From the NCBI GenBank assembly GCA_015039365.1, contig WION01000031.1, positions 62,001 through 126,000 of the forward strand: a stretch of DNA of 64,000 nucleotides. Reading direction: 5' to 3'. Below, in pieces: positions 11,971 through 55,110 of the stretch. The notes beneath the pieces are model-generated. The model did not search any database. It was given only the letters and a program-made list of their open reading frames with translations, and had not been told where the DNA came from. The translations under genes were made by a program, and so were the position numbers. The stretch comes from Amanita rubescens. Lineage: Eukaryota; Basidiomycota; Agaricomycetes; Agaricales; Amanitaceae. Positions within the stretch are counted from its first letter, which is position 1; each line of letters starts with the position of its first letter.

Positions 11971-12468
11971 ATGGCAGAGATGGCTGTTGCAGACACAAAC
12001 AGTGGGTTGCACTGATACATGTAATCAAAACCAACTCATTCATAATTACACAGATACAGAACATACAGTGATGCTCAAGGAGCAATACAAATGCCCCCAT
12101 TTCCGCATTCTAATCATAGGAAGGGCTAATGCAGGCAAGACTACCATTCTTGAGAAGGTCTGTGGTGTACAACAGGGTACAAAGCCTATCATACGTGACA
12201 AGGATGGTAAGCTAGATAAACCTCCAACTACTTTGCAGACCCACAGTAAATTTTTAGGTGAACAACTGGTGCCTTCTGAGACACATTTGATGCCATCAGT
12301 TGAGGCATAAATAATGTAAACATGTCTGGCATATGACAAGGCAATAATCATCAGAGAGGTATACATGATATTGAGCACCAGATTACATACCATGGATGCA
12401 ACTTTATCTTCCATGACTCTCAGGGTTTTGAATCTGGTGCAAGTGAGGAGTTGGAGCATGTTTGGGAA

Positions 12469-12872
12469 TGACGAAGTTATCTTATCTAATCTAAGATAAC
12501 AAGGAGATCTTATCTTATCTGCTTACTAAGCAGATTAAGGTATATATAGATAGAACCTTGTAGAAGGTTCTAGTACGCTTGCGTCATCCTTACTGCGGAT
12601 GGCGCCATATGACACCATAGCTGCGCATGACATCAGCGCAGCTCCATATCTCCATATATGAGTATGACATATGTAGTTACATATATTTACCTATGTTGTT
12701 ACCTATTAGGATACAGACAGTATATAAACCTGCCATGTACCGTAGAATAGTAACAAGCTCTCTTAACCTCATACCACCATCTTCTCAGCTGAGTGGTCAG
12801 CTACTGTACACATCGGGTAAGCTATCGCTTTAACTCCTCGACGCTGCGCTACTGGGCGTTTCCCTTTCGTCA
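12469..12872 (+). repeat. 5' LTR of the copia element
   Basis: It begins TGACGAAG and ends CTTTCGTCA. A TATATAGATAG box lies near 12541 and another TATATAAACC near 12721, either of which could serve as promoter. Short palindromes (TTATCTTATC... and CTTGTAGAAGG) lie near the 5' end. Confidence 0.9.
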
Positions 12873-12884
12873 GGTTATGGGCCC
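12873..12884 (+). promoter_or_regulatory. Primer binding site matching initiator tRNA-Met anticodon arm
   Basis: Directly after the 5' LTR the sequence is GGTTATGGGCCC. This is the reverse complement of GGGCCCATAACC, the anticodon stem-loop of eukaryotic initiator tRNA-Met. Copia of Drosophila is known to prime from a cleaved half of this tRNA, so the same half-tRNA mode is inferred here. Confidence 0.75.
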
Positions 12885-13704
12885 CGACATGGTATTGCTT
12901 GTCGACGCTATCGCCAACGACGTACGCGATGTGTGAACACAGGTATAGTATCGTGCGGGTCTGTGTACTTGTAGCACTGTTGATTACAGCTGACCCTTGC
13001 ACCTGCTATAAGAGCTAATGACATGCGCCCGGACCCTAGGGCTAAGGGGGATCTCCTAGACACCCAGGGATAAGGGTACCACCTACGTTTCTCAGGGCTG
13101 GCATGGCAACCCTGACCCCCACGGAGTTTTACTTGCCCTCCGTGACGTGATTGGGGTATTAATGCACGATATAACATCATAAGCCCATTAGAGGCTTTAT
13201 AATACAATATGGCTCGTAGATAGTCATTCTAGTATAAAGGACGTGCTGACATCCCATTTGGGGTGGTACACGCAGTCTATTGAGGATGCGCCCTTAGGGA
13301 CTCCTCTAGTCGGAATGTTCTATAGGAACATTCTAAGTTTAGGCTCTGTGGTGATCCCACAATCCTATCTAGATAGCTTCATATTGTTTACCGGTCGTGC
13401 TTACATAGCTGTCTGGGGGGTTTATGGACCAGAAGCTATTTCTATTCCTGGAACAAACTGTTCTCCCCCGTTCAAGGGGATCCAGGGGAGAAATGCCGTT
13501 TTGCGCGCTCCCAGTTCCAGGACCATATGCATGTCATCTCTTACAGGTAGCACATTCACACACACGGGTACATGTCCAAGGTGGTGGCGTCCAGGCATAT
13601 CCATGCTTGGAGCAGCTCATAAGCTGCACGAATGGGTTGTTGTCGTTTTCGTAATGACACCTCATTAATTGTTCCAATTTTAGATAAAATCTTCGCTCCA
13701 GCCT

Positions 13705-14268
13705 ATGAGCCGTCGAGCTAGAAGATATAATAGATTAGCAGAAGACCTAAATAGGCTAAACAACCTATTTCCAAGTTCATCTTCCGACAGTGAACTTGAA
13801 TCGCTGACTGCAAACTTTGCAAGCAGCTCAGCTCGAATTACTACCCGGCCCGTTAACCGGATAGTACCAACATACCCATCTGCCTCATCATCCGAGGACG
13901 AATTAGATCGTGATCCAAACGATTATTACGTCCCAAGAGCAGATACTCCGCTTCCTGTATACTTACCAGGAACAGCTCGTCATTCAGCAGGTGTACATAC
14001 CTCGCTGATAAATCGTCAGTACAGACTTGAAACTGACACATTTCGATCCGGTTTCACATTAACCGACGAAATCCAGTTCCGAAGATCTTTAATCGAAAAT
14101 CGAGGACCTGATTATAGCGAGGTAGAACCGTTCTCGCAACACAGTTCAAGTTCGTTCAGCTCATTAACTGAACCAAACCAAATCATAATCCAACAAAGGT
14201 TCCGAAGAACCTTTTTACAACTCTTTCTTGCCGCCTTCCTCGCATCACTTTCAATCTTCGTCATCTAA
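13705..14268 (+). CDS. Short first ORF of the copia element with a C-terminal membrane anchor
   Basis: 187 residues, not recognised. The N-terminus is basic (MSRRARRYNRLAEDL), the middle is Ser/Asp-rich and disordered, and the last 20 residues are hydrophobic (FLQLFLAAFLASLSIFVI), resembling a tail anchor. The stop TAA (14266-14268) is followed by AGA AAG and then the gag-pol ATG in the same frame. Only one stop codon therefore separates this ORF from gag-pol. Canonical copia elements have no such ORF. Readthrough of TAA would give a membrane-anchored N-terminal extension, and reinitiation after 6 nt is equally possible. It could also be an unused leader frame, but its length and composition argue for a protein. 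Confidence 0.6.
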   Translation: MSRRARRYNRLAEDLNRLNNLFPSSSSDSELESLTANFASSSARITTRPVNRIVPTYPSASSSEDELDRDPNDYYVPRADTPLPVYLPGTARHSAGVHTSLINRQYRLETDTFRSGFTLTDEIQFRRSLIENRGPDYSEVEPFSQHSSSSFSSLTEPNQIIIQQRFRRTFLQLFLAAFLASLSIFVI

Positions 14269-14274
14269 AGAAAG

Positions 14275-17200
14275 ATGTCCGAAGATTCAGCATCACTCTC
14301 CACTGTCCCCTTACTTAAGGGAGACAATTACCGCTTGTGGGCTCGCAAAATGACGGCCTATTTACAAGTAAAAGGAATCTACAAATACATGAGAGATTCC
14401 TTCATCCAACCGTTAGATCTCAATGCTACCGAGCAGGCAACGCTCGAAGCCCATGACTTCGATGCAATGTTACCTGCAGAAGAAGGTGCAGCTCCACTGC
14501 CGGCCCCAATACCGGCAAACATCCAAGCTTTATTAGATCAGAGAGACACATATTTAGAGTGGCTCTCTGATAACGAAAAAGCCCTGGGTTCAATTATGCT
14601 CCGTTTGAGCGATTCTATCGCGGAGATATATGATACTGGGGCTCATCTCAATGCAAGGGTCCTTTGGGTCGCCTTGCGACAGAGATATGGAGATACCGGC
14701 CGAACCGGTACCTTCAACGAATTCCAGGCTGCACTGGATTGGAAGCTTGATGAAAGAAGGGACCCCGAACAGTCCCTTAATGAAATAATCGCCAAATTCG
14801 AGCGATTAAGTGGACAGGGTTTCTCGCTACCCGAAGAACAAAAAGCGATGATAATTGTCCGCGGTGTACCGCATCGTTGGGACAATTTTGTAGGAGCCGT
14901 ACTGGCAACTGCACCAGCAGCTGGTCTAACAGTCCAGCATGTTGCGATTCAGATCAGGGAGGAATGGAGAAGGCGACACTCGGCTGTCGCACATACGACC
15001 GCACAGATGGCGCGGGGTGACCTGCAACAAAGAATTAGTGGACAGGCACCCTGGCAAGGTCGTGGGCGAGGACGTGGACGAGGCCGCGGAGGATTCCGTG
15101 GCCGTGGACGTGGTCGTGGTGGTTTTCAACCATACACACCACAAAACCAGCAACCAGTAGTGGGAGCTGGTAATGCTCCAAGGTTACCGGAGCAACAGCA
15201 GCAGTGGCAGGGTCAAATGACCAACCAAACACGTGGCCGTAATTGGCAACGTAATAGGCAACTTCGCCAAACTGCGAAGGCCAACCGAGCGGCAGCACGA
15301 GCTGACGCTCATCAAGTAACCACTGGCATGACCTATACTGGGCAAAACCAAACTCAGTATACTGCTGCACCGGCCATACTTGGCCACCATTCCATTGTAC
15401 CATTTGTACAAGGATCGTCCACAGGGAGAATAGAAGAAGTTACTCCCATGCAAGAAGAACCCCTTATAGAAGGGGCATATGATGATCAGCCGAATGATAA
15501 CTTCACGGCTTTTGACGATTATGATATGAAGAATTATGATGATTCTGCATATGATGATTACTATAACGACGAGTGGGTAAAAACTTATTTTAGTGCGGAT
15601 TGGGCTAACTCTTATTCAGTGGACGTATGTAAAACAATCTCAGATTCTGTAATTGTATATAACATGGAGTGTAATAAAAATTCATGTAAATCCAAAAACG
15701 TCCCAATGAGAGTTAGCCCTATAAGTCCAAACTATAAAAATAAGATTCATATCGCCTATCCAATGCATACAACGGGAAATCAACATCAGCACATAATATG
15801 TGCTGGTAGAACGGACAATTGCAAATGTCCTTCCTGTTGTACAGAACGGACTGGAGAAACACTATGGATGTGTGACTCTGGTGCATCTGAGCATTTTACC
15901 TTTAATCTGAACGATTTTTCAGATTATAAACCTTTTGATAAAGTGAAACTGGTAAAAACAGCAGATGGCACATCCGATCTAATTGGACAAGGCACTGTTA
16001 TTTTTATTCATAAATTATCTAATGGAACAAGCCACCTTGTGAAACTGTACCCCGTGTTATACATGCCGCGTCTTAACATACGACTTGTTTCGAACGGCAT
16101 GTTGTGTAAGCAAGGGTTACTGGCGTCACAAGACGATCAACGGATCACCTTTTCCTATAAAGATGGTAAAAAGGAAATATATCTTGAAGCAAGTTATCGC
16201 AATCAAGATACATTAACTTTATGCACAGGACGTATTATTCATAAAAACGTCCACAAAGTGCCACCATTCTTTGAAAGAGAATCTGTCAATACATATACAC
16301 ACGTTGATAAGGCTCCACCTGTTGAAACTTATACAGTAAATGAAAGTGTATCAACGTACGATATATGGCATAAACGTCTAGGTCACCCTGGTAAAGACGT
16401 GTTCCAACATCTTAAAGGACACGTAAAAGGGTTTGAAAAAGGCGATCTTCCCAAACCATCCCCAAATCTTCGATGTGAAGGATGCTTAAAAGGAAAAATG
16501 AAGGCAAAAACTTACAAAGAATCCAAAAAGCGGGCATCACGTCCGCTTGAAATGATCCACATGGACTTAAAAGAGTTTCCAACTCAGTCTTATCACAAAT
16601 ACAAGTATATACTTGTTGTGGTCGATGATTATTCATCGTATGTATGGATTGGATTCCTTAAACACAAGTCAGATACCACTGAAGTGTTCCAGCGATGGTT
16701 CACGAAAGTTTCTGCACTTAACAAACGAATACTCTACCTCCGTTCCGATCGAGGGGGGGAATTCGTAAATAAAGCCTTTAAAGATTTCCTTGACAAAAAT
16801 GGCATTCAACACCAAACATCGGCACCTCATATACATCAGCAAAATGGACGAGCTGAACGAATGATTCAGACTTTAAATGATAAGTCTGAAGCTATGCGGC
16901 TCGATGCATGTATACCGAGATCTTGGTGGGAATTTTCAATCGAAACAGCTGTACACGTATACAATAGAACCCCAATTGTGCGTGGCAACTGGAAAACGCC
17001 TTGGGAACTTTTATATAATTCCCTTCCTGACGTTCAATACTTTAAAGTATTTGGATGTGAAGCTTGGGTCTTTATCCCAGTTGAAAAACGTTCTGATAAA
17101 CTATCTCCAAAATCAGAACTTATGACCTTTGTCGGGTATGAACTAGGATCAAAAGCATATAAATTTATGGATTCCAATAACGCACTAGTCATATCCGCCC

Positions 17201-20200
17201 AAGCCACATTCTTTGAAGACAGATTTCCTCGCAAAGGAAAAAGTGATATTATTATTACTAAAGATCTTGCACCAATCCTTCTCGATAATCGAGACACTAA
17301 TAATGGTATTCCATCCCCTTCCCCTGTTAGGGGAAGACAACTTGGTCGCAGGCGCACACAATCTCCTCTACCAGCTGACTCTGTAGAGGGAGGAGATCCT
17401 GAAAGCGACTCAAGCTCCAGCTCCGGTCACTCGGGCGATAAACCGGCATCAGTAAAACGAGAATCTTTATCACCCCTATCAGATGGCCTTAAAACTCCGT
17501 CTTGGGGATTAAAATCTCGTAGTCCAACACCGGACGATGCTGATAGACCGGATAGTCCTGATATCAGAAAAGGTTCCACCATGGATGATCTTAGAAGGAG
17601 ATTCCAAGAAACCATGAGGAACATTGACGATGAACTAGAGGACCTTGAAGCAGGAGAAAGAACTCGCCTGCTGGAACAAAACAGTGGACTTCGTGACAGG
17701 CACACGAATATAGAAATTCGTAGACGCAATGCGGATGAAATCCTAAAGAAATTCATTCCTGACAGAAGTCCACCACGCACGAATACTAGAGAACAAGTCT
17801 TAGATATTAGAAGAAGACTTGCAGAAAGATTCGCGCCAGATAGGAACCTTGAACAAGGAAGTAAAGATCGTATACCAATCTCTGAATTCAAAAAGGAGAT
17901 TGATGAACGAATTCCGATGCCAGATCTAACTTTTAATAAAGTTAGAGAGGAATTTGGCAAACGATCAACCGTTCAAAAACCTATAAATCCAGCAGATTAT
18001 ATCCCTGAAACAATTAAACCATCATCCAAAACCATGGGAAAACGTAGAGAAAGATCCAAATCTTTAGATAAATCTCATAGACCTCGTAGTAGACAGAGGC
18101 TAAATGAACCCACTCCAGTGGTACCCCCACCGGCAGTAGTTCCCCGGAGATCTAATCGTGTTCCCAAACCAATTATACGTAAAGACAATGCGTATGGTGA
18201 AAAGAAAGCAGTTGAAATAGAAAAAGAAATTCTCAGACAAAGAGATCTGATCAAATATCAGATTGACAACTACGAGAATGACTTTGGTGGTCGTATCCCA
18301 AACAAGGATGCGGCTACACGCTTTAATCCAACTGCTAAAACACCGCCTTCAAGATCTATGGATATAGATCCAAAGGCAACAATAGCTAGGATGATCAAAG
18401 AGTGTGGAAATGACTTTATGCATTTCCTACTCGCAAATATGATACCGAGAGAAGAAATTCGAACGTATCAATATAGGGATATATATAAGATCAAAGGTGA
18501 AAATATTGATCTATATAAGCAGTGGCGAACTGCAATGGAAGACGAGTTCAAATCTCTACAAAATAGAGATATATGGGAATTAATGGAATTACCAAAAGGG
18601 CGTAACCCAATAAAGTGTCGTTGGGTTTATGATATTAAGTCGGATGGCCGTAAAAAGGCACGACTTGTCGCCAAAGGCTTTAGCCAACGCCCGGGATTGG
18701 ATTATGATGAAACATTCTCGCCGGTAGCGAGATATGAAACTATTAGACTTCTTCTGGCAACAAGTGCTTTAGAAAATTGGGATATTGAAGCACTTGACGT
18801 TAAAACTGCTTTCCTCTATGGCGACTTAGACGAGGAAATATATATGCAACAACCAGAAGGTTTCATCATAAAAGGACAAGAATCTAAAGTTTATAAACTT
18901 AAGAAAGCTATTTATGGCTTAAAACAAGCATCGTACGCTTGGAATAAACAAGCAGACAAATCCTTGAAGTCCCTAGGATTTAAACGATGCTTAGCCGACT
19001 CTGGCATATATGTCAGAACCACAGATAAAGATATTACCATATGTGTAATATATGTGGATGATATACTTTTCATAGGAGACAAAACCGAAACAATTTCATA
19101 TATCAAAAAGGAGTTTATGAAAATGTGGGAATGTCGTGACCTAGGAAAAGTCAAAGAATATTTGGGCATCAAAATCAATTACGACCGAGCGATTGGTACG
19201 CTTGTAATAGATCAAGCTGCCTACGCAAAGACAGTCGTAGAACGCTTTGGTTTGTTAAATTGCAAACCGGTGTCAACTCCTTTACCTGCAGGATATGTAC
19301 CTGCTAAAAACACCTCTGAAGCATCCTCCGAGGATAGATCCTATTATCAACAAATAATTGGATCGTTATTATATCTCGCCTTAGGAACTAGGCCTGATAT
19401 TGCTTATGCTGTTATTTTAATGTCGCAATTTTCTGTTAATCCATCTTACGACCACATCCAAAGGGCGCTTTATATAGTAAAATATATAGCGCACACCCTT
19501 GACACACGAATTACCTATTCCAGAAATGGGAAAGGCTTCGTTGCCTATGCAGACGCAGATTGGGCGTCTGACAGAGAGACTAGAGTCTCGGTTACAGGCT
19601 ATGCCTTAACTTTGGCAGGGGGTGCAGTTTGTTGGGTTTCTCGAAAACAGAAAACAGTTGCGTTGTCATCAACGGAAGCTGAATATATGGCAATGTCCGA
19701 TGCCTCACGTCAAATTATGTGGGTGCTAAACCTATACCAAGAATTAGGTTTCCCCTTGGGCGGCATTGACCTTCTTTGCGACAATCAGGGTGCGATATTT
19801 CTGGCATCAAACCCTGCACAACAGCACAAATCAAAACACATTTCCATTCGCTATCATTATATTAGGGAACGTGTTGAACAAAAAGAGATCAATCTTTATT
19901 ACGTTCCTACCAATCAACAAATAGCGGATTTAATGACTAAGAACCTGAATAGAGAGAAAATTCAGTTCTTTATAAATGAACTAGGAATAACCGTTAATGT
20001 TACTCCATATCCCACTATCAAAATGCATAGTGCAAGTCACTGGATACACCTTTCAGCTGAAGGGTTAAATGGAGTTGAAGCAACATTCATGTATACGAAC
20101 AAGCGACAAAATTTCATTCGTGATATGCTTGATCCGAAAGTACCAAAGGATACGTTCATGAATAGAAAAGAAGATCTTCTACCGAAACCAGTTAGAGATC

Positions 20201-20370
20201 GTATTATGAAGACATACGAACCTATAAGACAGTCGAAGATCAAAAGATCCTTTAAACGAGAAGACATTAATATGTTGGACTCGTGGAATCTTTTAGAAAC
20301 ATTAACGGATGAAAATAAATTCCTAGTAGAGTTCATTAAGAAGAAATGGCGAATAAATGTTCTAGGATGA
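14275..20370 (+). CDS. gag-pol: Copia gag-pol polyprotein, intact
   Basis: 2031 residues in one frame. The N-terminal Gag region (about 1-240) starts with VPLLKGDNYRLWARKM. An Arg/Gly-rich stretch (about 262-285) takes the place of a usual zinc knuckle. The protease DSG is at Asp534 (DSGASEHFT). A pre-integrase zinc domain (about 695-750) ends CEGCLKGKMK. The integrase core has Asp764, Asp825 and Glu861 with 35 residues between the last two. An unusually long charged linker (about 1010-1390) carries RRRN/RRRL coiled segments. The reverse transcriptase has YVDD at 1593-1596, and RNase H spans about 1755-1890 (ADADWASD, STEAEY). About 130 extra residues follow RNase H, with no domain that I recognise. 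The order integrase before RT defines copia. All catalytic residues that I can check are present. Confidence 0.95.
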   Translation: MSEDSASLSTVPLLKGDNYRLWARKMTAYLQVKGIYKYMRDSFIQPLDLNATEQATLEAHDFDAMLPAEEGAAPLPAPIPANIQALLDQRDTYLEWLSDNEKALGSIMLRLSDSIAEIYDTGAHLNARVLWVALRQRYGDTGRTGTFNEFQAALDWKLDERRDPEQSLNEIIAKFERLSGQGFSLPEEQKAMIIVRGVPHRWDNFVGAVLATAPAAGLTVQHVAIQIREEWRRRHSAVAHTTAQMARGDLQQRISGQAPWQGRGRGRGRGRGGFRGRGRGRGGFQPYTPQNQQPVVGAGNAPRLPEQQQQWQGQMTNQTRGRNWQRNRQLRQTAKANRAAARADAHQVTTGMTYTGQNQTQYTAAPAILGHHSIVPFVQGSSTGRIEEVTPMQEEPLIEGAYDDQPNDNFTAFDDYDMKNYDDSAYDDYYNDEWVKTYFSADWANSYSVDVCKTISDSVIVYNMECNKNSCKSKNVPMRVSPISPNYKNKIHIAYPMHTTGNQHQHIICAGRTDNCKCPSCCTERTGETLWMCDSGASEHFTFNLNDFSDYKPFDKVKLVKTADGTSDLIGQGTVIFIHKLSNGTSHLVKLYPVLYMPRLNIRLVSNGMLCKQGLLASQDDQRITFSYKDGKKEIYLEASYRNQDTLTLCTGRIIHKNVHKVPPFFERESVNTYTHVDKAPPVETYTVNESVSTYDIWHKRLGHPGKDVFQHLKGHVKGFEKGDLPKPSPNLRCEGCLKGKMKAKTYKESKKRASRPLEMIHMDLKEFPTQSYHKYKYILVVVDDYSSYVWIGFLKHKSDTTEVFQRWFTKVSALNKRILYLRSDRGGEFVNKAFKDFLDKNGIQHQTSAPHIHQQNGRAERMIQTLNDKSEAMRLDACIPRSWWEFSIETAVHVYNRTPIVRGNWKTPWELLYNSLPDVQYFKVFGCEAWVFIPVEKRSDKLSPKSELMTFVGYELGSKAYKFMDSNNALVISAQATFFEDRFPRKGKSDIIITKDLAPILLDNRDTNNGIPSPSPVRGRQLGRRRTQSPLPADSVEGGDPESDSSSSSGHSGDKPASVKRESLSPLSDGLKTPSWGLKSRSPTPDDADRPDSPDIRKGSTMDDLRRRFQETMRNIDDELEDLEAGERTRLLEQNSGLRDRHTNIEIRRRNADEILKKFIPDRSPPRTNTREQVLDIRRRLAERFAPDRNLEQGSKDRIPISEFKKEIDERIPMPDLTFNKVREEFGKRSTVQKPINPADYIPETIKPSSKTMGKRRERSKSLDKSHRPRSRQRLNEPTPVVPPPAVVPRRSNRVPKPIIRKDNAYGEKKAVEIEKEILRQRDLIKYQIDNYENDFGGRIPNKDAATRFNPTAKTPPSRSMDIDPKATIARMIKECGNDFMHFLLANMIPREEIRTYQYRDIYKIKGENIDLYKQWRTAMEDEFKSLQNRDIWELMELPKGRNPIKCRWVYDIKSDGRKKARLVAKGFSQRPGLDYDETFSPVARYETIRLLLATSALENWDIEALDVKTAFLYGDLDEEIYMQQPEGFIIKGQESKVYKLKKAIYGLKQASYAWNKQADKSLKSLGFKRCLADSGIYVRTTDKDITICVIYVDDILFIGDKTETISYIKKEFMKMWECRDLGKVKEYLGIKINYDRAIGTLVIDQAAYAKTVVERFGLLNCKPVSTPLPAGYVPAKNTSEASSEDRSYYQQIIGSLLYLALGTRPDIAYAVILMSQFSVNPSYDHIQRALYIVKYIAHTLDTRITYSRNGKGFVAYADADWASDRETRVSVTGYALTLAGGAVCWVSRKQKTVALSSTEAEYMAMSDASRQIMWVLNLYQELGFPLGGIDLLCDNQGAIFLASNPAQQHKSKHISIRYHYIRERVEQKEINLYYVPTNQQIADLMTKNLNREKIQFFINELGITVNVTPYPTIKMHSASHWIHLSAEGLNGVEATFMYTNKRQNFIRDMLDPKVPKDTFMNRKEDLLPKPVRDRIMKTYEPIRQSKIKRSFKREDINMLDSWNLLETLTDENKFLVEFIKKKWRINVLG

Positions 20371-20385
20371 CTTAGCGAGGGGGTG

Positions 20386-20789
20386 TGACGAAGTTATCTT
20401 ATCTAATCTAAGATAACAAGGAGATCTTATCTTATCTGCTTACTAAGCAGATTAAGGTATATATAGATAGAACCTTGTAGAAGGTTCTAGTACGCTTGCG
20501 TCATCCTTACTGCGGATGGCGCCATATGACACCATAGCTGCGCATGACATCAGCGCAGCTCCATATCTCCATATATGAGTATGACATATGTAGTTACATA
20601 TATTTACCTATGTTGTTACCTATTAGGATACAGACAGTATATAAACCTGCCATGTACCGTAGAATAGTAACAAGCTCTCTTAACCTCATACCACCATCTT
20701 CTCAGCTGAGTGGTCAGCTACTGTACACATCGGGTAAGCTATCGCTTTAACTCCTCGACGCTGCGCTACTGGGCGTTTCCCTTTCGTCA
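20386..20789 (+). repeat. 3' LTR of the copia element
   Basis: 404 bp, identical as far as I can compare to 12469-12872. It is followed directly by the GGGAA duplicate and then by the interrupted GTPase exon. Confidence 0.9.
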
Positions 20790-21603
20790 GGGAATTCATT
20801 AAGAAGCGGTCTTCTGCAGCTGAGTTGAGAGATCAGTTACATGCAATTTGGTATCTTTATATTAAACTGTTTCATGCCAAAATGGCTAATCTTTTCATAG
20901 GTATTGCATTCCCATGGACAGTCCTCGACCTCTTCTATCTGCAGAACTTGAGTTCTTTACCAAAGGAACAGGGAAAGGTGAGTCCATTATGGTTGGTGCC
21001 TCTTCCTACCATGCCTCTTGTTAATTAAATAGATAATAAAATCATTTCTTGACAGTTCCTTTGGTGGTTGTATTCACCAAATTTGATGGTCAAATAGTGA
21101 AAGAATCTATTGGCCTGAATGATGTGGAGAATGATGAAGATAAGTGGGACAAAGCCAGAAAAAATGCTGATGAAGTTTTTCAGAGAGTTTATCTTCCCAA
21201 AGTTTTAAATACCCAATATCCACCAAAGGCCTATGTGCAATTGGAAGGTGGGAATGGGAAACATTTCTTAATTTCACATAGAACTAATCCTGCACAACAG
21301 ATATGGACCTCTCTGAGAATAACTGTCCAGAATTGACTGAGAAGACTGCTAATGCAATTGATGATGCCAGTCTTCTTCAACTCTTTTTGTCAACACAAAT
21401 GAACAACCTTGATCTTTGTGTTAAAGCTGCCCTTCAGTAAGAACCAAATTGCAAATAACATTAAAATATTGACAGCTGACAGGTACATTTTGGCTGAAAG
21501 GCAATACATATGGGAATATGTTATACTCTTCATTTTCCAGAAGTTTCCACACTATTGGGTAAGTTGCAAAACACATTGATACAGGCATGGAAAAAGCTAA
21601 CAG

Positions 21604-23381
21604 CAAAACATAGATGTAGGTTTCATTTACATATACAAAAGTGCAACATGGATTAATAGTATTGCAACAGGGTGTAAGCAGTGCATCTTCATAATATCAA
21701 ATACTTGATGCAATTCCATCAAATAACAGGAACTATATTTGAGTAACTTAATTATCTTTTCTGCATCAAAGTCTAATGTCATAAATAACAGTGGGCACAG
21801 TGGGCAAGTAAAATGGAAATCATCATGGAATGTGATGAGTTCTGATCTCATAAGCTGCAGGAAGTGAGCAACAATGCAGTTTTTGCCACCAGACAGTCTC
21901 ATAGTATTGCTTCTTACAACAGACTGTGAGCAGAATAACACTATCTTCTCCAATTTGGCTCATTGCATGTCATCCCATGATTAACAGATAGTGAGTAACA
22001 TTGGGGCTTGTTCTGCCAAGAGTTGACATTGTATTTATCATTATTGCCAGAGAGTTAGTCTAACATTGAATTTTTGCACCCAAGCAGGCTTCATTACCAA
22101 TAGACAGTGAGTGCAGTTGCAGTTTGTTCTACCTGGAAGTACATTGCATGACATGACATGATTAACAGTATGTGAGTGGTAATGCAGTGATTTTCTGCAA
22201 CATAGTCTCACCATATCACATCCCATGACAAACAGCAAGCAAGTGACAGTGATTTTCTGCCAGGCAGTCTCATTATATCTAATCCCATGACCCACAGTTT
22301 GTGAGTGACAGTGCACTGATTTTCTGGCACTGAATCTCATCTCATCTCATCCTATGACCAACAGGATGTGAGTGACAGTGCACTGATTTTCTGGCAGTCA
22401 CATCTCATCCCATGACCAACAGATTGTGAGTGGTGGTACAACAATTTTCTGCCAGGCAGTCTCACCATATATTGTCCTGTGATGAATAGCTTGTGGGTGA
22501 CAGTCCAGTGATTTTCTGCCAGGAAGTCTCACCCATTCAATGACCAATAGGATGTGAGTGGCATTTCAGTGATTTTCTGCAAGGCAGTCTCACCACATCT
22601 CATCACATGACCAATAGCTTGTGAGTGACAGTCACAGTGATTTTCTGCAACCAAACCTTATCTCATCTCATCACACAACCAACAGTTGGTTAGTGACAGT
22701 GCAGTAATTTTCTCCCAGGCAATCACATCACATCTCATCCCATGGCCAACAGGATGTGAGTGACAGTGATTTTCTGCCAGGAAGTCTCATGTCCAATAAC
22801 AAACAGGCTGTGAGTGACAGTGCAGTTATTTTCTGCCAGCCAGTCTCATCGCATCTGACTCATCCCATGATGAATAGGATGTAAGTGAGAGCACAGTGAT
22901 TTTCTGCCAGGCAGTCTCACCTCATTTCATCCCATAACCAACAGTTTGTGAGTGACAGTGTAGTGATTTTCTATCAGGCAGTCTCATCACATCTAATCCA
23001 ATAACCACCAGGCTGTGAGTGTCATGGCAGTGATCCTATGCCAGGCATTCTTACCCCAGCTCATCCCATGCTGTGCAGCTGGTGAGTATATTTGCACATT
23101 GTCCAGCAGGTGTTCTGAACAACCCCATCATATGTCAAATAGCAAGTGAGTTACATATGTTATAGCCTTCTCTGAATTATCTTATCATCAATGACAGAAA
23201 GTGTGCTAACATGTATTCTTTTTCATTCTTATTTTCTGACTGATTTTATGGTCATTTACAGATTGTAAGATACTATTCATTGTTAGCCATATTGATGGCT
23301 TTTCTCATATCTTTTGTCTTCTTTAGGTGAGCAATGTAATTCAACAAATGTGAATATAAATACTCAACTTTTGTTAAGGTT
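21604..23381 (+). other. Array of single-codon micro-exons, copy 1
   Basis: After exon 8 comes a 12-nt exon (21604-21615). Triplets bounded by AG and a GT/GC donor then start at 21671 GGT, 21801 TGG, 21861 GAA, 21923 ACT, 21988 ATA, 22051 AGA, 22104 ACA, 22169 TAT, 22236 CAA, 22298 TTT, 22365 GAT, 22423 ATT, 22490 CTT, 22551 GAT, 22618 CTT, 22686 TTG, 22753 GAT, 22807 GCT, 22878 GAT, 22945 TTT, 23012 GCT, 23079 CTG, 23143 CAA, 23198 AAA, 23262 ATT and 23379 GTT. Donors are mostly GTGAGT; those after TGG 21801 and CAA 22236 are GCAAGT. Most units end TGACCAACAG or a close variant, giving branch site and acceptor together. Central units are about 65-75 nt and similar to each other, as if made by tandem duplication. 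The unit between GGT and TGG is irregular. Confidence 0.8.
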
Positions 23382-23802
23382 GTAGGTCTACTTGAATGTT
23401 GAACTTCAAACTTTTATTCTTGCTCATTTATCATTAGCCTGAGCTCTCACATTTGTTTGAAAATCCAACTGCAAAGTTTGAAAAAACAGTAACTGTGATG
23501 TCATTTCTATCATACACAACTAACATTGTGATGTAAACAGCCTGAAGCATGCCAAGTACTAGTTGGTAATGTACCTCTCTTTGTACCCTTTCCATACTAA
23601 TTGTTTAGCAGCCATGAATATCCTTGCCAAGTTGTCATTTTGGATAAGAGAGCCAATTGAAACATCCATCATGAAAGCTTTGGACCAGTTCAAGAAACAA
23701 AGTTATGTGGATAAGCTGAAGACTCAGATTACCTCTGAGGCAATACCCACTGGACATCAAGATTTAGTTCAATTCCTGTATGATCAAGTTATCAACATCT
23801 GA

Positions 23803-26974: not shown

Positions 26975-28015
26975 ATGGCCAAGCCGCGCGACGCTCCGAA
27001 ATATTGGGATGACTCATATGAAGCAGTCGTTGCAGGAGTTGTGAGTACTTCTTAGACTTGGGCGGGAAAAAACCCTGCAAAAGTTTCGCATGTTTCTCAA
27101 CCTACTACACAGGAAATGCGCGACACCCCCACACGGCTTGCCGACATCCTGGGCACCTACGTCTGGCTGTTCAGCGGTGACCCAGAGTGGGGCGGGGATG
27201 TCGTGGCTATGCACCACGACTACACGGACGACGCGGCTTTCATCGCGAGGCACAGCATCATGCTCGGCGCTGCAAAGCATCGTCCCGGTCAGTCAGTCGC
27301 GCCCGAGGACGTTAGCGGGCACATCACCTGGGGTACGTTCACGGTCGCGTTTGACGGCATGCGGCGTGTGCGGAAGGGGCGGTCTTCGAACGCAGCTGTC
27401 GTGGAGAGCTATTGGGAGGTGCTGCTGAATGAGAAGCAGGACGACGAGGACAGCGCAAGATGGTTGGATACGGAGGGCAATGGAGTAGGCGTTTCGGTTG
27501 TGCTGGATGATAATGGGTCCCCGTTTTTGGTGTTTGAGTGGCACCTTGGGGGAGGGGGCCACAGTTCGTGGTCCGGCTATTATCTGGGGAAGCGATTGGT
27601 GAAGGGGAAGGAGTGGCAGTTGACGACTAATGAGCAGGACCGGTTGGGGATGGAGGCCAGGTTTAGGAGTGTGGAGCGGTCGGTAAAAGGGGGGCGTCCG
27701 CGCGTGTATGAGGAAGATGAGGGGGAGGAAGATTACTACGGTCGTTCCGATGAGGATGAGATCAGTGGGGAAGAGACCAGTGGGGAAGAGGCTGTTAGAG
27801 AGAAGAGCAAAGCGAGCAGTGATGAAAGAGGCGCTAAGAAGAAGAAAGTGAGCAGCGATGAAAGAGGCTCTACTAGTAAGAAGAGGAAAGCAAGCAGCGA
27901 TGAAAGAGGCTCTACTAGTAAGAAGAGGAAAGCGAGCAGCGATGAGAGAGGCTCTACTAGTAAGAAGAGGAAAGCGAGCACTAATAAAACAGGCACTAAG
28001 AAGAGGAGGCGCTAG
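26975..28015 (+). CDS. Hypothetical protein with Ser/Lys-rich repeat tail
   Basis: Two exons, 26975-27040 and 27113-28015, join in frame (intron of 72 nt, GTGAGT...ACACAG) to 322 residues. The N-terminal two thirds look globular (MAKPRDAPKYWDDSYEAVV, YVWLFSGDPEWGGD, then a Gly/Trp-rich HLGGGGHSSWSGYYLG) and match no family that I recognise. From about residue 230 the chain is strongly acidic (EEDEGEED, SDEDE). It then holds three near-identical 14-residue repeats, ASSDERGSTSKKRK, with degenerate copies before and after, and ends KKRRR. Basic clusters suggest nuclear targeting. The direct repeats at DNA level imply recent unit duplication. GC content is higher than in the flanking repeats. Confidence 0.75.
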
Positions 28016-50629: not shown

Positions 50630-53600
50630 ATGGCTAAAGCTGAAGCTGCAAGTGCAGATGCAAACAGTGGGTTAAAATACTCACCTTGATTTCACCTTGA
50701 TTTCACCCAGGCATAATTTACAGGTACAGATTTTGTAATGCTCAAGGAGCGATATAGATGTCCCTGGTTCCGTATTCTTATCATAGGAAGGGCTAATGCT
50801 GGAAAAACAACTATCCTGGAGAAGATCTGTGGTGTAAAGCATGGAACAAAGCCAATCATATATGATCAGAATGGTATGCCATGAGGCAAAGCAAGTTATT
50901 TTGCATATTCAGTGATAATATAGGTGAAGAACTGGCTCCCTCTGGCACACATCTAATGCCATCAATTGAGGTAAGCAATATGATAGAAAATCAGTGCTTT
51001 TAATAATGTAATGAATTGTCAGAGAGGAATACATGATATTGAGCACCAGATCACATACCAAGGAAGCAACTTTATCTTCCATGACTCTCAAGGTTTTGAA
51101 TCTGGTGCATCTGAAGAGTTGGAGCATGTTTGGAACTTCATTGACAAGCGGTCAGCTGGAGCAGAGCTGAAGGACCAGTTACATGCAATCTGGTATGTGT
51201 CTAGTTGTATTGCTTCCTTACAACTAGGTGATAAGTAATTCAAAGGTATTGCATACCCATGGACAGTCCTCGTCCTCTTTTATCCACAGAAGTTGAATTC
51301 TTTGATAAAGGAACTGGGAAAGGTGAGTCAGAAGGCAGTCACAATAATTTTTGGTTTAGTTTGGCCACTTGCCTTTTGCATTATTTACATGTCCTACATT
51401 TCATGTGGCCCTACAGGGATCACAGTGTACTGACTATGAATATATTTTGCAGTTCCTTTGGTGGTTGTATTCACTAAATTTGATGGCCAAATAATTCAAG
51501 AAGCTGTCCACCTTAAATATTTTAATAATGAAGAAGATAAGTGGGACAAGGCCAGGAAAAATGCTGACAATACTTTTCATGCAGTCTATGTTCCTAAAGT
51601 TTTCAGTACTAAATATCCTCCAAAAGCATATGTGCGGTTGGAAGGTTGGATGGTTTGCATTTCTTTATTGCAGTCAGAGATAATGTTGTTTAACAGATAT
51701 GGACGTTGCAGAAAATAACTGTCCAGAATTGACTAAGAGGACAGCTGATGCCATTGATGATACCACACTTTATCAGCTGTTTATCTCAACACAAAGGAAC
51801 AACCTTGATCTTTGTGTCAAAGCTTCCCTTCAGTGAGCACAATGAAATGTAGAATCAGCTTCTTATTTTCTAGGAATGTTTTGGACCATGGAAACCCTGC
51901 ATGGGATATCATTACAACTACAATTTTCTGCAAGTTTCCACACTATTGGGCAAGTGAAAAAACTTTGCTGTTGATATAAAAGCTGAGTTAAGAACAGGAA
52001 GATTATACAGTAGGTTTCATGTAAAATAATGATAGCATGTATAAATAAGGTCTGTAAAAGGAGGTAAGTCTTTTATATATCATTATATGACAAACTTGTC
52101 CCAATCATCATATGTGAAGGGGGTTGTATGTAATCCTTTTTTTTGTCTGCAGGGCAATGAAATGACATGACAATTTGCATCTTGCATTGAAGGGCAAAGA
52201 ATTATATGTGAGTACTATAATATAATCTGTATGACCAGGTCTAATGCCATGTTAAAAGTGGGTAAGGTGTTTTCCAGACATGTTTAATATTTATTTGATC
52301 TCATTATACACAGAAAGTGAGTAGTCTTAGTTTTTTATGCCTCATCATATTAAATTTCATAATAATAGGGAGTGAGTGAATATGTATGTCTTCATTTTTT
52401 AATTCTGCTCACCTCATATATGACCAATAGAGAGTGAGATACATTACATTCTTCTACTATGCATTATCATGATTATGACTAACAGAGAGTAAGTAAAATT
52501 TATTTCTAGATAGTGTGATCTCAATTCCAGTATTCACAGGGAGTGAGCAATACTTCACTTTTGTATTTGTCTGATCACATCATCACATTGTGATCCATGT
52601 TTCACAGAGAGTGAGTGACATTGTAACACAGGATTATTCCCACCATGGCCAATTACATCTCATTCCACCTATAGTTTGTGAGTGAACCAGGCCCTCTTCA
52701 TTATGACAATTTCATCAAATCTTGCCCCATGATAACAGCTGGTGGGTTTATGATGCTTTTTTTTTGGTAAAGATGGTCTTACTACATAGTATCATTCCAT
52801 ATAATTAGGCAGTGAGCCACACTGCAGTTTTTCTTCTGGGCAGTTTCATCTTATGTCTTTTCATTGATCCACAGGATGTGAGTGGCAGTTGAGATATTCT
52901 TGTCAGGCAATTAATTACACACACTGTCATCATTCCGTGCCATGATGAACAGGGAGTGAGTTGAAGACTACAACATTTTCCTGCATGCTTTTGTCACATC
53001 CTATCCATTACCAACAGAGAGTGAGCAACTCTCTTCCAGGCATTCTCACTACATCTCATATAAATGACAGATTGTAAGTGATATTCTAGTTCTATCTGTC
53101 AGGTGGCTTCATCCCATGACCAACAGAAAGTCAGTGACATTGCTGTGCTCTCTGCCAGATATCTCATACATTTATATAATTGCACAACTAACAGTGTGCA
53201 AGTGTCACATCACTTCCCTCTATTGAGCAATCTCATCACACATCATACCAACAGAATGTGGGTGAAATTCAGTTTTCTTTGCTAGTAACCTACAAATATC
53301 ATGGTCAATAGGCAGTGAGTTACATTGCAGTTTCCTGAACATTTAACTCAGGCCTGTGTCTCATCTCATGACCAAAAGCCTGTGAGTGGAACTGCAGAGT
53401 TTTCATCAAGGATTTCTCATGACTATATTATCAAAGGATGTAAGTGCACTGTTACAATCAGATGAGTCTTATTACATTAAGTCATTCCTATGAACAACAG
53501 GATGTAAGCAGCCTTGTCATGGACCTGTCTTATCATGCCAAACATGATTGGGCCATAACAGTTTGTAAGCGGGTTGTTCATGTTTTACTATGCAACCCAA

Positions 53601-54678
53601 TCAGACCTTCATCACCTAACTAGCAGGTGAGTGATACTTTAGTTTTTTGGCACCATTTCAGTTTAGTTTATGTGACTTCCCATGGACAGGGTGTGAGTCA
53701 TACTCCACATTTTCTTGAGCTCCCAGATGGTCTTATCAGATCCAATCCCATAACTGGACCAGGGTGTGAGTCATACTCCACATTTTCTTGAGCTCCCAGA
53801 TGGTCTCATCAGATCCAATCCCATAACTGGACAGGATGTAAGTCATACTCCACATTTTCTTGAGCTCCCAGATGTCTCATCAGTTATTCTCACAAAAATA
53901 TTAGGACATTGTGAGTGAAATACCATGATGCTGTTGTGCAGATCCTGGAGTCATTACTTCAAATTTCTTTCTTTTCCAATAGGTTGTAAGTTATATTGCA
54001 AAGTTTCTGTCATTGAATCTCATCAAATTTCATCACATGGCTAAAAGATCGTAAGTAATAGTGCTATTTTACCAGGTTGTTCCATCAAACCTTGACTTGC
54101 CCTATGACTAACAGGATGTGAGAGGCATTTTTTTTTCTTTCTGCCAGTCCATCTCATCTTCTCCGGTGTATTAATAGCAAGTGAGTGACATTGCAGCACT
54201 TCCTTCTAAGCATTCCAAAATGTCTCATCCCATGAATAACTGCAGTTTGTGAGAGATGTTATGCCTTCCACTGTGCATAATCTTACCAAGCTCATGCCAA
54301 CAGCCAGTGAGTATTTTTTTCCAAGCAGTTCCATCTTAATCACACAGCTGACAGTATGTGGGTGACACTACAAATACTTGCTTTAAATACATAACTGTAA
54401 CCACTAATGTCCAAAAGCATGTATGTGACATTTTAGTGCTTTTATTATGCCCAGAAATTTGATAACCCCTTGTTCCATGTATAACAGGTTGTGAGTGAAG
54501 CTCAAGTGCTTTGTTCTACCACATCTTATATCTTACCCTTGACCAACAGCAGGTCAGTGAAAATGCAACTTTGCTTCTTTCATTACATCTTATTCATGAT
54601 TAAAGCAAGTGAGTGATATTGTTATTATATATTTGTTTCAGGCAGCCTAATCAATCTCACTAGCAAGTGAGTGGGATT
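50630..54678 (+). pseudogene. P-loop GTPase gene with single-codon exons, copy 2, 3' end displaced
   Basis: Exons 50630-50666, 50724-50873, 50924-50970, 51023-51192, 51246-51322, 51453-51644, 51697-51832 and 51874-51949 match copy 1 exon for exon in phase. Exon 3 has 47 nt, exon 7 has 136 and exon 8 has 76 in both. G1 GRANAGKT, G3 DSQG and G4 TKFD are conserved. Exon 8 ends KFPHYW in both. A 12-nt exon and at least 40 micro-exons follow. At 54679, inside the intron after the last triplet, an LTR element begins. The C-terminal exons, if they exist, lie beyond the window. Exon 8 uses a GC donor (GCAAGT). Whether the gene is still expressed through such a large intron is unknown. Confidence 0.75.
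51998..54666 (+). other. Array of single-codon micro-exons, copy 2
   Basis: The 12-nt exon is 51998-52009. Triplets start at 52061 GAG, 52259 TGG, 52314 AAA, 52369 GGA, 52431 AGA, 52486 AGA, 52540 GGA, 52608 AGA, 52675 TTT, 52739 CTG, 52809 GCA, 52875 GAT, 52953 GGA, 53018 AGA, 53071 ATT, 53127 AAA, 53195 TGT, 53255 AAT, 53312 GCA, 53379 CCT, 53437 GAT, 53501 GAT, 53562 TTT, 53624 CAG, 53690 GGT, 53763 GGT, 53835 GAT, 53905 (six bases, GACATT), 53983 GTT, 54048 ATC, 54115 GAT, 54178 CAA, 54246 TTT, 54304 CCA, 54355 TAT, 54418 CAT, 54488 GTT, 54550 CAG, 54606 CAA and 54664 CAA. None is a stop. Units are more divergent than in copy 1, yet the AG-triplet-GT frame is kept. The unit at 52064-52258 is irregular. 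Confidence 0.8.
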
Positions 54679-55110
54679 TGTTACAAACGTACGTCATGGC
54701 CTATCTTTTTCTTATCTTATCATCTATGTCATCTCTCCTACGTCATTGATTGCATATGCGTTCCTTCTGGAACATTCATCATTTATCATATGCTATTCTA
54801 TTTTATCACATGCATGTCGATTATCACATGTAAACCATTCCATTATCACATGTAGCTGTTTCGTTATCACATGCATTCCTATTTACTATATTTGCGTATA
54901 TACTTTGTACTATATAAACTACGCAAATATACGACTAGACCTCAGTCTAGTTTTAACAGTCAAAATCTGTCTCATTATCGTCTAAGCTCCCTTGAGGACT
55001 TATCCGATAATAACTCTTATCCTTTGAACGTTCTTAAGTGCTGGAACTCCCTTGAGGAACCTACGGTACCTGATAAGCTTGACTTATCAGTGAACGAACA
55101 AAACGTAACA
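54679..55110 (+). repeat. 5' LTR of the self-priming element
   Basis: 432 bp with ends TGTTACAAACG and CGTAACA. TATATAAA is at 54911-54918, which puts the transcript start near 54941-54947. Repeated TTATCACATG words lie at about 54800-54870. Confidence 0.75.
54944..54955 (+). promoter_or_regulatory. Inferred RNA 5' end that acts as self-primer
   Basis: AGTCTAGTTTTA lies about 30 bp after the TATA box and is a perfect 12-nt complement of the primer site at 55112-55123. In Tf1-type elements the folded-back transcript 5' end primes minus-strand synthesis. Confidence 0.7.

Follow-up and report, generated by a model that had tools for sequence, protein, structure and literature searches.

A tandem array of putative one-codon exons in a GTPase gene family of the fungus Amanita rubescens

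Microexons are usually isolated within their genes and are thought to need special help. In the micro-exon genes (MEGs) of schistosomes, which encode secreted products and are differentially spliced, a run of very short symmetric exons supplies a large share of the protein, and skipping keeps the frame; these exons are longer than one codon and do not form a tandem repeat. In recursive splicing, adjacent introns are removed by consecutive reactions. Four other systems are of relevance. The homothorax gene of Drosophila contains a single 3-nt microexon, isolated and alternatively spliced (PMC7392893). Introner-like elements of fungi are near-identical introns present in many copies in one genome, in unrelated genes (PMC4457414). 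Tandem genomic duplication of a segment is a source of introns (PMC4974935), and stwintrons are nested introns that are removed by consecutive reactions (PMC8469720).

The gene analysed here lies within a stretch of 64,000 nt (the window) on a 339,453-base contig of the A. rubescens assembly, which totals 75.7 Mb. It resembles the schistosome MEGs in that many very short exons, with lengths that are multiples of three, would follow one another; unlike the MEGs, it would have exons of one codon each, separated by introns that are tandem copies, and it encodes a GTPase. A likeness to recursive splice sites was found in 10 of the 17 modelled genes of the family (the window gene included), which carry a zero-length AG/GT or AG/GC site. 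With the homothorax microexon the gene would share exons of exactly one codon, arranged here as an array (PMC7392893). Unlike the introner-like elements, the copies lie in tandem and, at the places inspected, belong to one gene family (PMC4457414), and in comparison with intron gain by tandem duplication the event would have been repeated tens of times, with one codon each (PMC4974935). In contrast to stwintrons, the units lie side by side with a codon between them (PMC8469720); they follow one another, every unit has a donor and an acceptor to itself, and no intron nested in a splice element of another was observed among them. No description of a one-codon exon array was found in the literature searched.

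Table 1. Features of the window gene and of the second array (positions in the window)
Feature	Position	Strand	Remarks
GTPase exon part with G3-like motif DSQG, broken by insertion	12355..12468	+	translation RGIHDIEHQITYHGCNFIFHDSQGFESGASEELEHVWE
LTR element, putative copia-type, inserted in coding exon	12469..20789	+	LTRs and target duplication
Coding exon continued past insertion	20795..20850	+	
Coding exon	20901..20977	+	
Coding exon with G4-like motif TKFD	21056..21247	+	
Coding exon	21301..21436	+	
Coding exon ending KFPHYW, phase 0	21483..21558	+	FPH.W conserved in homologs
12-nt exon QNID	21604..21615	+	counterpart in paralog L056 is VTRQ
Array of 26 putative single-codon exons	21671..23381	+	joined translation GWETIRTYQFDILDLLDADFALQKIV
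Putative single-codon exons 1-13, starts	21671, 21801, 21861, 21923, 21988, 22051, 22104, 22169, 22236, 22298, 22365, 22423, 22490	+	
Putative single-codon exons 14-26, starts	22551, 22618, 22686, 22753, 22807, 22878, 22945, 23012, 23079, 23143, 23198, 23262, 23379	+	
127-nt intron at the position of the paralogs' 12-, 15- or 30-nt exon	21674..21800	+	
Tandem repeat of ~67 bp (intron + codon) within array	22242..23070	+	repeat finding
114-nt intron holding internal AG/GTGAGC	23265..23378	+	boundary 23326/23327
Coding exon PELSHLFENPTAKFEKT	23438..23488	+	
Coding exon	23541..23565	+	
Last coding exon and TGA stop	23609..23802	+	
Second array, 38 single-codon units by pattern	52061..54666	+	paralog with P-loop at 50798, FPHYW at 51935

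We consider it very probable, from the sequence, that the 26 triplets listed in Table 1 are one-codon exons, spliced through about 26 short spliceosomal introns into the linker of a GTPase. A first-pass annotation of this DNA had placed 26 triplets between AG and GT or GC donors in a GTPase gene. A pattern search ([CTA]AG/NNN/G[TC]-donor) recovered all 26 at the same places, and the motifs of a P-loop GTPase are present (P-loop GRANAGKT; DSQG for DxxG; TKFD for [NT]KxD). When the 12-nt exon, the 26 triplets and the flanking exons are joined, one open frame runs to the TGA at 23802, as had also been claimed, and the product across the array reads KFPHYW-QNID-GWETIRTYQFDILDLLDADFALQKIV-PELSHLF. 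None of the triplets is a stop codon, again in agreement with the first-pass annotation; this point is weak when taken alone, since composition gives a chance of about 0.43 that 26 triplets contain no stop. Therefore, the window gene by itself cannot settle whether the triplets are exons, and absence of stops within the window was rejected as proof.

Between 21601 and 23450, 20 distances from YAG to G[TC][AG]AG[TC] measured 3 nt, one measured 0 nt and one 12 nt, with no other size up to 12 nt; the minus strand of the same region held no YAG-donor pair 3 nt apart. The sequence YAGNNNGTGAGT occurs 29 times in the window (0.79 expected; maximum of 2 in 100 shuffles), with 14 copies in the first array, 14 in the second (52311-54672) and one elsewhere. 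The introns between the triplets measure 50-68 nt, with the exception of a 127-nt and a 114-nt intron, and intron length follows no multiple-of-three rule. If the region 21559-23437 were retained, 32 to 51 stops would appear in each frame. A splice-chain search that was neutral to exon length gave 3 nt for 24 of the 31 exons of the window gene, exons of 13, 7 and 22 nt being chosen in places. The units located before 22164 and after 23070 fall outside the called repeats and have the same layout.

The architecture recurs in paralogs. The array DNA gave 161 genomic matches, several per locus and the window's own among them, and the GTPase-domain stretch gave 201, exon by exon. Twenty loci were fetched and analysed together with the window gene (21 loci). 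Many of them form near-identical pairs, as if the assembly held both nuclear haplotypes, and counts across loci are therefore not independent. In this set the nearest YAG upstream of G[TC][AG]AG[TC] lay at 3 nt in 953 of 1455 cases; the next commonest outcomes were none within 30 nt (178) and 29 nt (159), the latter probably being a motif inside the repeat. The repeat unit is made up of an intron of about 62 nt and a single codon. For a count over the whole genome, the exact flanks TATGACCAACAG and GTGAGTGA (12+8 bases) were used, with the reversed pattern as control. The gap between the flanks was 3 nt in 1161 cases and 6 nt in 11, and frame-breaking gaps numbered 23 (16 of 1-2 nt, 13 of these on contig C749, and seven of 4-5 nt); the control gave 0 at every gap size.

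Neither TAA, TGA nor TAG was present among the 1161 exact-flank units, for which about 62 TAA or TGA were expected from per-position composition, the units being related by duplication and the sample thus not independent. Only three of these triplets end in AG (two GAG, one CAG). With the regex, which was applied to the 21 loci, 7 stops were found among 1140 triplets (66 expected); six of the seven coincide in part with a real triplet 4 bases upstream, which leaves a single one, in L047, in place. TAA and TGA fit the same splicing rules as CAA, GAA, AAA, CGA and GGA; that both are missing is therefore a sign of translation.

Splice-chain models were built between the anchors FPH[YF]W and LSF, with no homology used in between and with a score bonus for 3-nt exons. 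Under this bonus they contained 931 exons of 3 nt in 17 of 18 loci, in the typical order of a 12-nt exon, one codon, a 30-nt (or 12-15 nt) exon and then single codons. No open splice chain was obtained for L039 or its near-identical partner L040, and the models of L046 and L052 span a large insertion, where they are unreliable. Locus L060 (C749:1800-7500) differs in its gaps, with 30 of 3 nt, ten of 2 nt, three of 4 nt and three of 1 nt. Homopolymer error was rejected as the source of these odd gaps, as the T-run of the repeat is normal in 45 of 46 copies; for the same reason this array is tentatively read as a decayed copy, and it perhaps serves as a natural control.

The zero-length site of the window gene (AG/GTGAGC) precedes the last codon of the array (GTT) and, judged from sequence, has the juxtaposed acceptor and donor of a recursive splice site, with no exon between them. 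Of the 16 other modelled loci, nine, which include several allele-like pairs, carry a site at the same place (L048-L051, L053, L054, where it reads AG/GCAAGT, and L056-L058), and seven lack it.

In sequence, the triplets are the most variable positions of the unit, yet nearly all copies keep them at 3 nt, and the introns are free to vary. Their three positions carry 0.13, 0.17 and 0.61 bits of information, and neighbouring bases that the pattern left unfixed (-16 to -4 and +7 to +17) carry 0.44-1.38 bits (n=1133 in both cases); the high values of the AG and donor bases (1.2-2.0) are partly imposed, because the pattern fixed or narrowed them. Codon choice in the arrays departs from that of ordinary exons, whose codons were counted in the same loci at residues identical to five query proteins. 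Glutamine is encoded by 162 CAA and no CAG in the arrays, compared with 101 and 136, respectively, in ordinary exons. Phenylalanine uses TTT 76 times and TTC once, aspartate GAT 69 times and GAC once, and arginine mostly CGA (92). Third-base C was present in 18 of 1133 array codons and in 1075 of 6278 ordinary-exon codons. Such restriction would be expected if a CAG codon created an extra acceptor where the exon ends and a C ahead of GT weakened the donor.

Comparison of allele-like pairs gave a similar picture. Three diverged pairs show 91 length differences, yet 166 of 175 triplets are unchanged and hold their place. The remainder comprises six substitutions (L049/L050), including CAA to CTT and GTT to CAA, one triplet kept with a changed donor, one L054 unit without match in L055 and one L056 unit poorly aligned in L057. 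Changes in exon length were confined to one whole unit of 66 nt and two exons of 3 versus 6 nt, all of them frame-neutral; the 3- versus 6-nt exons were found in L049/L050 and L056/L057. L039 and L040 differ by a 65-nt stretch that includes one triplet. Splice-site bases were substituted less often than other intron bases (17/1399 versus 486/12868, p 4e-8). Triplet substitutions (11/525) were slightly below other intron bases (p 0.045), the triplets being clearly constrained in two pairs (2/282) and not in the third (9/243). In the pair L044/L052 triplets change more than introns (5/147 versus 46/3301), and L052 has a 2.8-kb insertion inside the array relative to L044. The multi-base triplet changes and the excess in L044/L052 suggest exchange of units between positions or copies.

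The first single-codon residues of the arrays are alike across paralogs, as in WFEQGKKKTDREIEY (L048) and WFDKAKKEADGEREF (L057), and a contiguous motif of this kind is present in database proteins from contigs of 1.1 to 1.9 kb, namely WFEKGKKESDREIEY (P0018), WFEHGKKDTDKQIVY (P0019), WFAEAKKQADGEREY (P0036) and WFEEAKQDADDERDF (P0097). In the genome, 15 such residues span about 15 exons and more than 800 bases; therefore these short contigs, whose frame stays open through the GTPase domain, are most likely RNA-derived (cDNA). Over the first 15 residues, the best locus was identical to P0018 at 12, to P0036 at 11, to P0019 at 10 and to P0097 at 9, and none of the 2000 shuffles made for each of the four did as well, the maximum over 16 loci being taken. 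The result was weaker for P0002, P0004 and P0001 (1, 7 and 16 of 2000 shuffles as good, respectively), and P0098, P0105 and P0120 gave no match in this test (590, 670 and 1646 of 2000). The 15-residue window was picked after the motif had been noticed and is thus post hoc. When regex peptides were compared less selectively with 12 linkers, most of the results lacked significance; the best values were 0/300 for P0019, 2/300 for P0002 and 3/300 for P0018, with 16-19/300 for three proteins and 84-297/300 for six, perhaps because units with weak donors are skipped and because low-complexity linkers inflate the null. A protein search with the linker alone found nothing, and in another linker search P0022 was the sole match. 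The closest genomic matches of P0019 and P0036 reach 89% and 81%, indicating that other genes, or other species, are the source of these two; the genomic stretch retrieved for P0019 enters none of the counts.

What the motif match covers is the start of the array, its older part; the later repetitive codons rest on the size, stop and codon statistics. With the size of 3 nt kept genome-wide, the avoidance of stops and the agreement with RNA-like proteins, the first-pass view of the triplets as real one-codon exons gains support. The paralogs share the architecture; the first pass had noted neither the family-wide occurrence, with over 1000 units, nor the second array of the window. In the window copy the local structure at triplets 1 and 2 is uncertain, because the 127-nt intron occupies the position of the 12-30 nt exon of the paralogs. 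This intron may hide a lost or damaged exon, and the start of the window array may be damaged.

P0022 (319 aa, from a 1254-nt contig) is nearly identical to paralog L056 where the two were compared. In the protein, KFPHFW is followed by VTRQ D ASETTFPLLWSDQPCLYAC, and there the sequence stops. In L056 two introns flank a 12-nt exon, GTGACCAGACAG, that encodes VTRQ, and the second of these introns is followed by GAT and the donor-like GCAAGTG; the sequence downstream of this GCAAGTG translates exactly to ASETTFPLLWSDQPCLYAC plus a stop. Hence, the two introns around the 12-nt exon appear to have been removed and the next one retained. The RNA-like contig of P0022 represents a non-productive transcript, and incomplete splicing occurs; it supports the proposed model for the entrance of the array and fits removal of introns from the 5' side.

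According to the model that we propose, each intron would be recognised by intron definition, through its donor, the branch-like ATGAC and the CAACAG acceptor, over a length of about 62 nt, and neighbouring introns would be taken out one after another, given that a 3-nt exon could not hold both sets of factors. Arrays would grow and shrink by unequal exchange of whole intron-plus-codon units. As each unit is exactly one codon in phase 0, a change in copy number, or skipping, would alter the length of the linker without a frameshift, and we read the linker as a hypervariable segment that grows by whole intron-plus-codon units.

Splicing of the array may be loose, with transcripts that include different subsets of units, and the linker would then be a distribution of lengths. 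We regard this as a real possibility, somewhat less likely than not: the units are all in phase 0, so skipping would be frame-neutral, P0022 is incompletely spliced and the linkers of the RNA-like proteins vary widely in length. The conserved motif speaks against an entirely free choice, as some transcripts would seem from it to have at least their first units joined in sequence.

Another explanation concerns the window copy only, which could be a decayed pseudogene, with triplets 1 and 2 and the hidden exon of 12-30 nt already broken and the 26 exons never an active form. The uninterrupted LTR element inserted in an upstream exon is in keeping with this. It splits the exon after DSQG, is flanked by the target duplication GGGAA (12464-12468 and 20790-20794), carries LTRs identical at 405 of 405 aligned bases and contains a single ORF of 2031 aa (14275-20370); it is a recent insertion in a coding exon. 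With that exon broken, the full protein is probably no longer produced from the window copy; neither RNA nor protein of the window gene itself was found. The 127-nt intron at the site of the paralogs' short exon is a second point in favour. However, triplets 3-26 retain their size, splice sites and frame, and the identity of the LTRs leaves too little time for decay caused by the insertion. We treat this explanation as somewhat doubtful.

By homology to P0001, the array would encode the linker that connects the GTPase domain with the C-terminal helices. In the predicted structure of P0001 both the GTPase domain and the C-terminal helical domain are modelled with confidence, and the segment that joins them (about 291-340) has pLDDT values of 42-61. 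In a Pfam scan of five homologs, P0001 matched MMR_HSR1 with 18.1 bits (cut-off 21.9) and P0004 matched Arf with 16 (cut-off 22.3), while the other three gave no match at all. The best Foldseek matches were BDLP (bacterial dynamin-like protein) and Irga6-type immunity-related GTPases; TM-scores were low, 0.47 or less among the 50 matches listed, and the likeness to dynamin- and IRG-type GTPases is a lead only.

Among 120 listed homologs, 95 are annotated proteins (not jgi or ena). Sixty-three of these lack FPHxW, 31 end at most 70 residues past the motif and only P0009 continues, its annotation joining MFPHYWVMMKQ directly to LFALFT. The annotations look as if gene prediction had stopped at the array. 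As 94 of the 95 end before the array or within 70 residues past its start, databases are likely to lack the C-terminal part for many Amanita genes.

Two further explanations bear on the nature of the repeat. The intron could be a mobile introner that landed repeatedly and carried a codon with it, as the more than 1000 near-identical copies in one genome might suggest. This is very unlikely, since the copies are arranged head-to-tail and, among the matches listed (about 100 of 1161, inspected by eye), their places lie near this GTPase family; contig C12, which this inspection did not place, also has the C-terminal exon of the family. That the array is a tandem satellite in one intron of about 1.9 kb, removed whole and with splice-like sites as by-products of intron duplication, is likewise very unlikely: the array is partly a recognisable tandem repeat, so that conserved flanks could partly reflect descent, nearly all the annotated homologs lack FPHxW or end soon past it and P0009 is annotated as joining the flanks of the array directly, but the triplets are the most variable positions and yet hold their size of 3 nt with no stops, the first units spell residues of RNA-like proteins and the window units outside the called repeats share the layout, and a single large intron or non-coding satellite is thus disfavoured by triplet size, stop avoidance and motif match.

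If the triplets are one-codon exons, as we favour, the fungal spliceosome apparently handles tens of them in succession with little beyond intron signals, and in the array nature would put intron definition, and the order in which introns are removed, to an extreme test. Duplication of its units would also be a way to gain an intron along with a codon and avoid a frameshift. A broader reading, for and against which we see equal weight, takes the array as a set of codon cassettes, in which the satellite unit is an intron carrying one codon and the GTPase linkers evolve, and perhaps are shuffled by splicing, codon by codon. Every gain, loss, swap or skip would in that case be frame-neutral, and the array would represent a new route to a hypervariable protein, written in an alphabet restricted by splicing (CAG nearly excluded, C-ending codons rare).

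The second array of the window belongs to a GTPase gene of the same family (50798-54672), and its units read EKGRRGRFLADGRIKCNAPDDFQGGDVIDQFPYHVQQQ. No C-terminal exon of this gene was found up to 58000; by eye, the gene is cut off near 54680 by mobile-element-like sequence. Elsewhere in the window, a tandem repeat of 42 and 84 bp was observed at 27801-28004, within an ORF of 299 aa (27116-28015).
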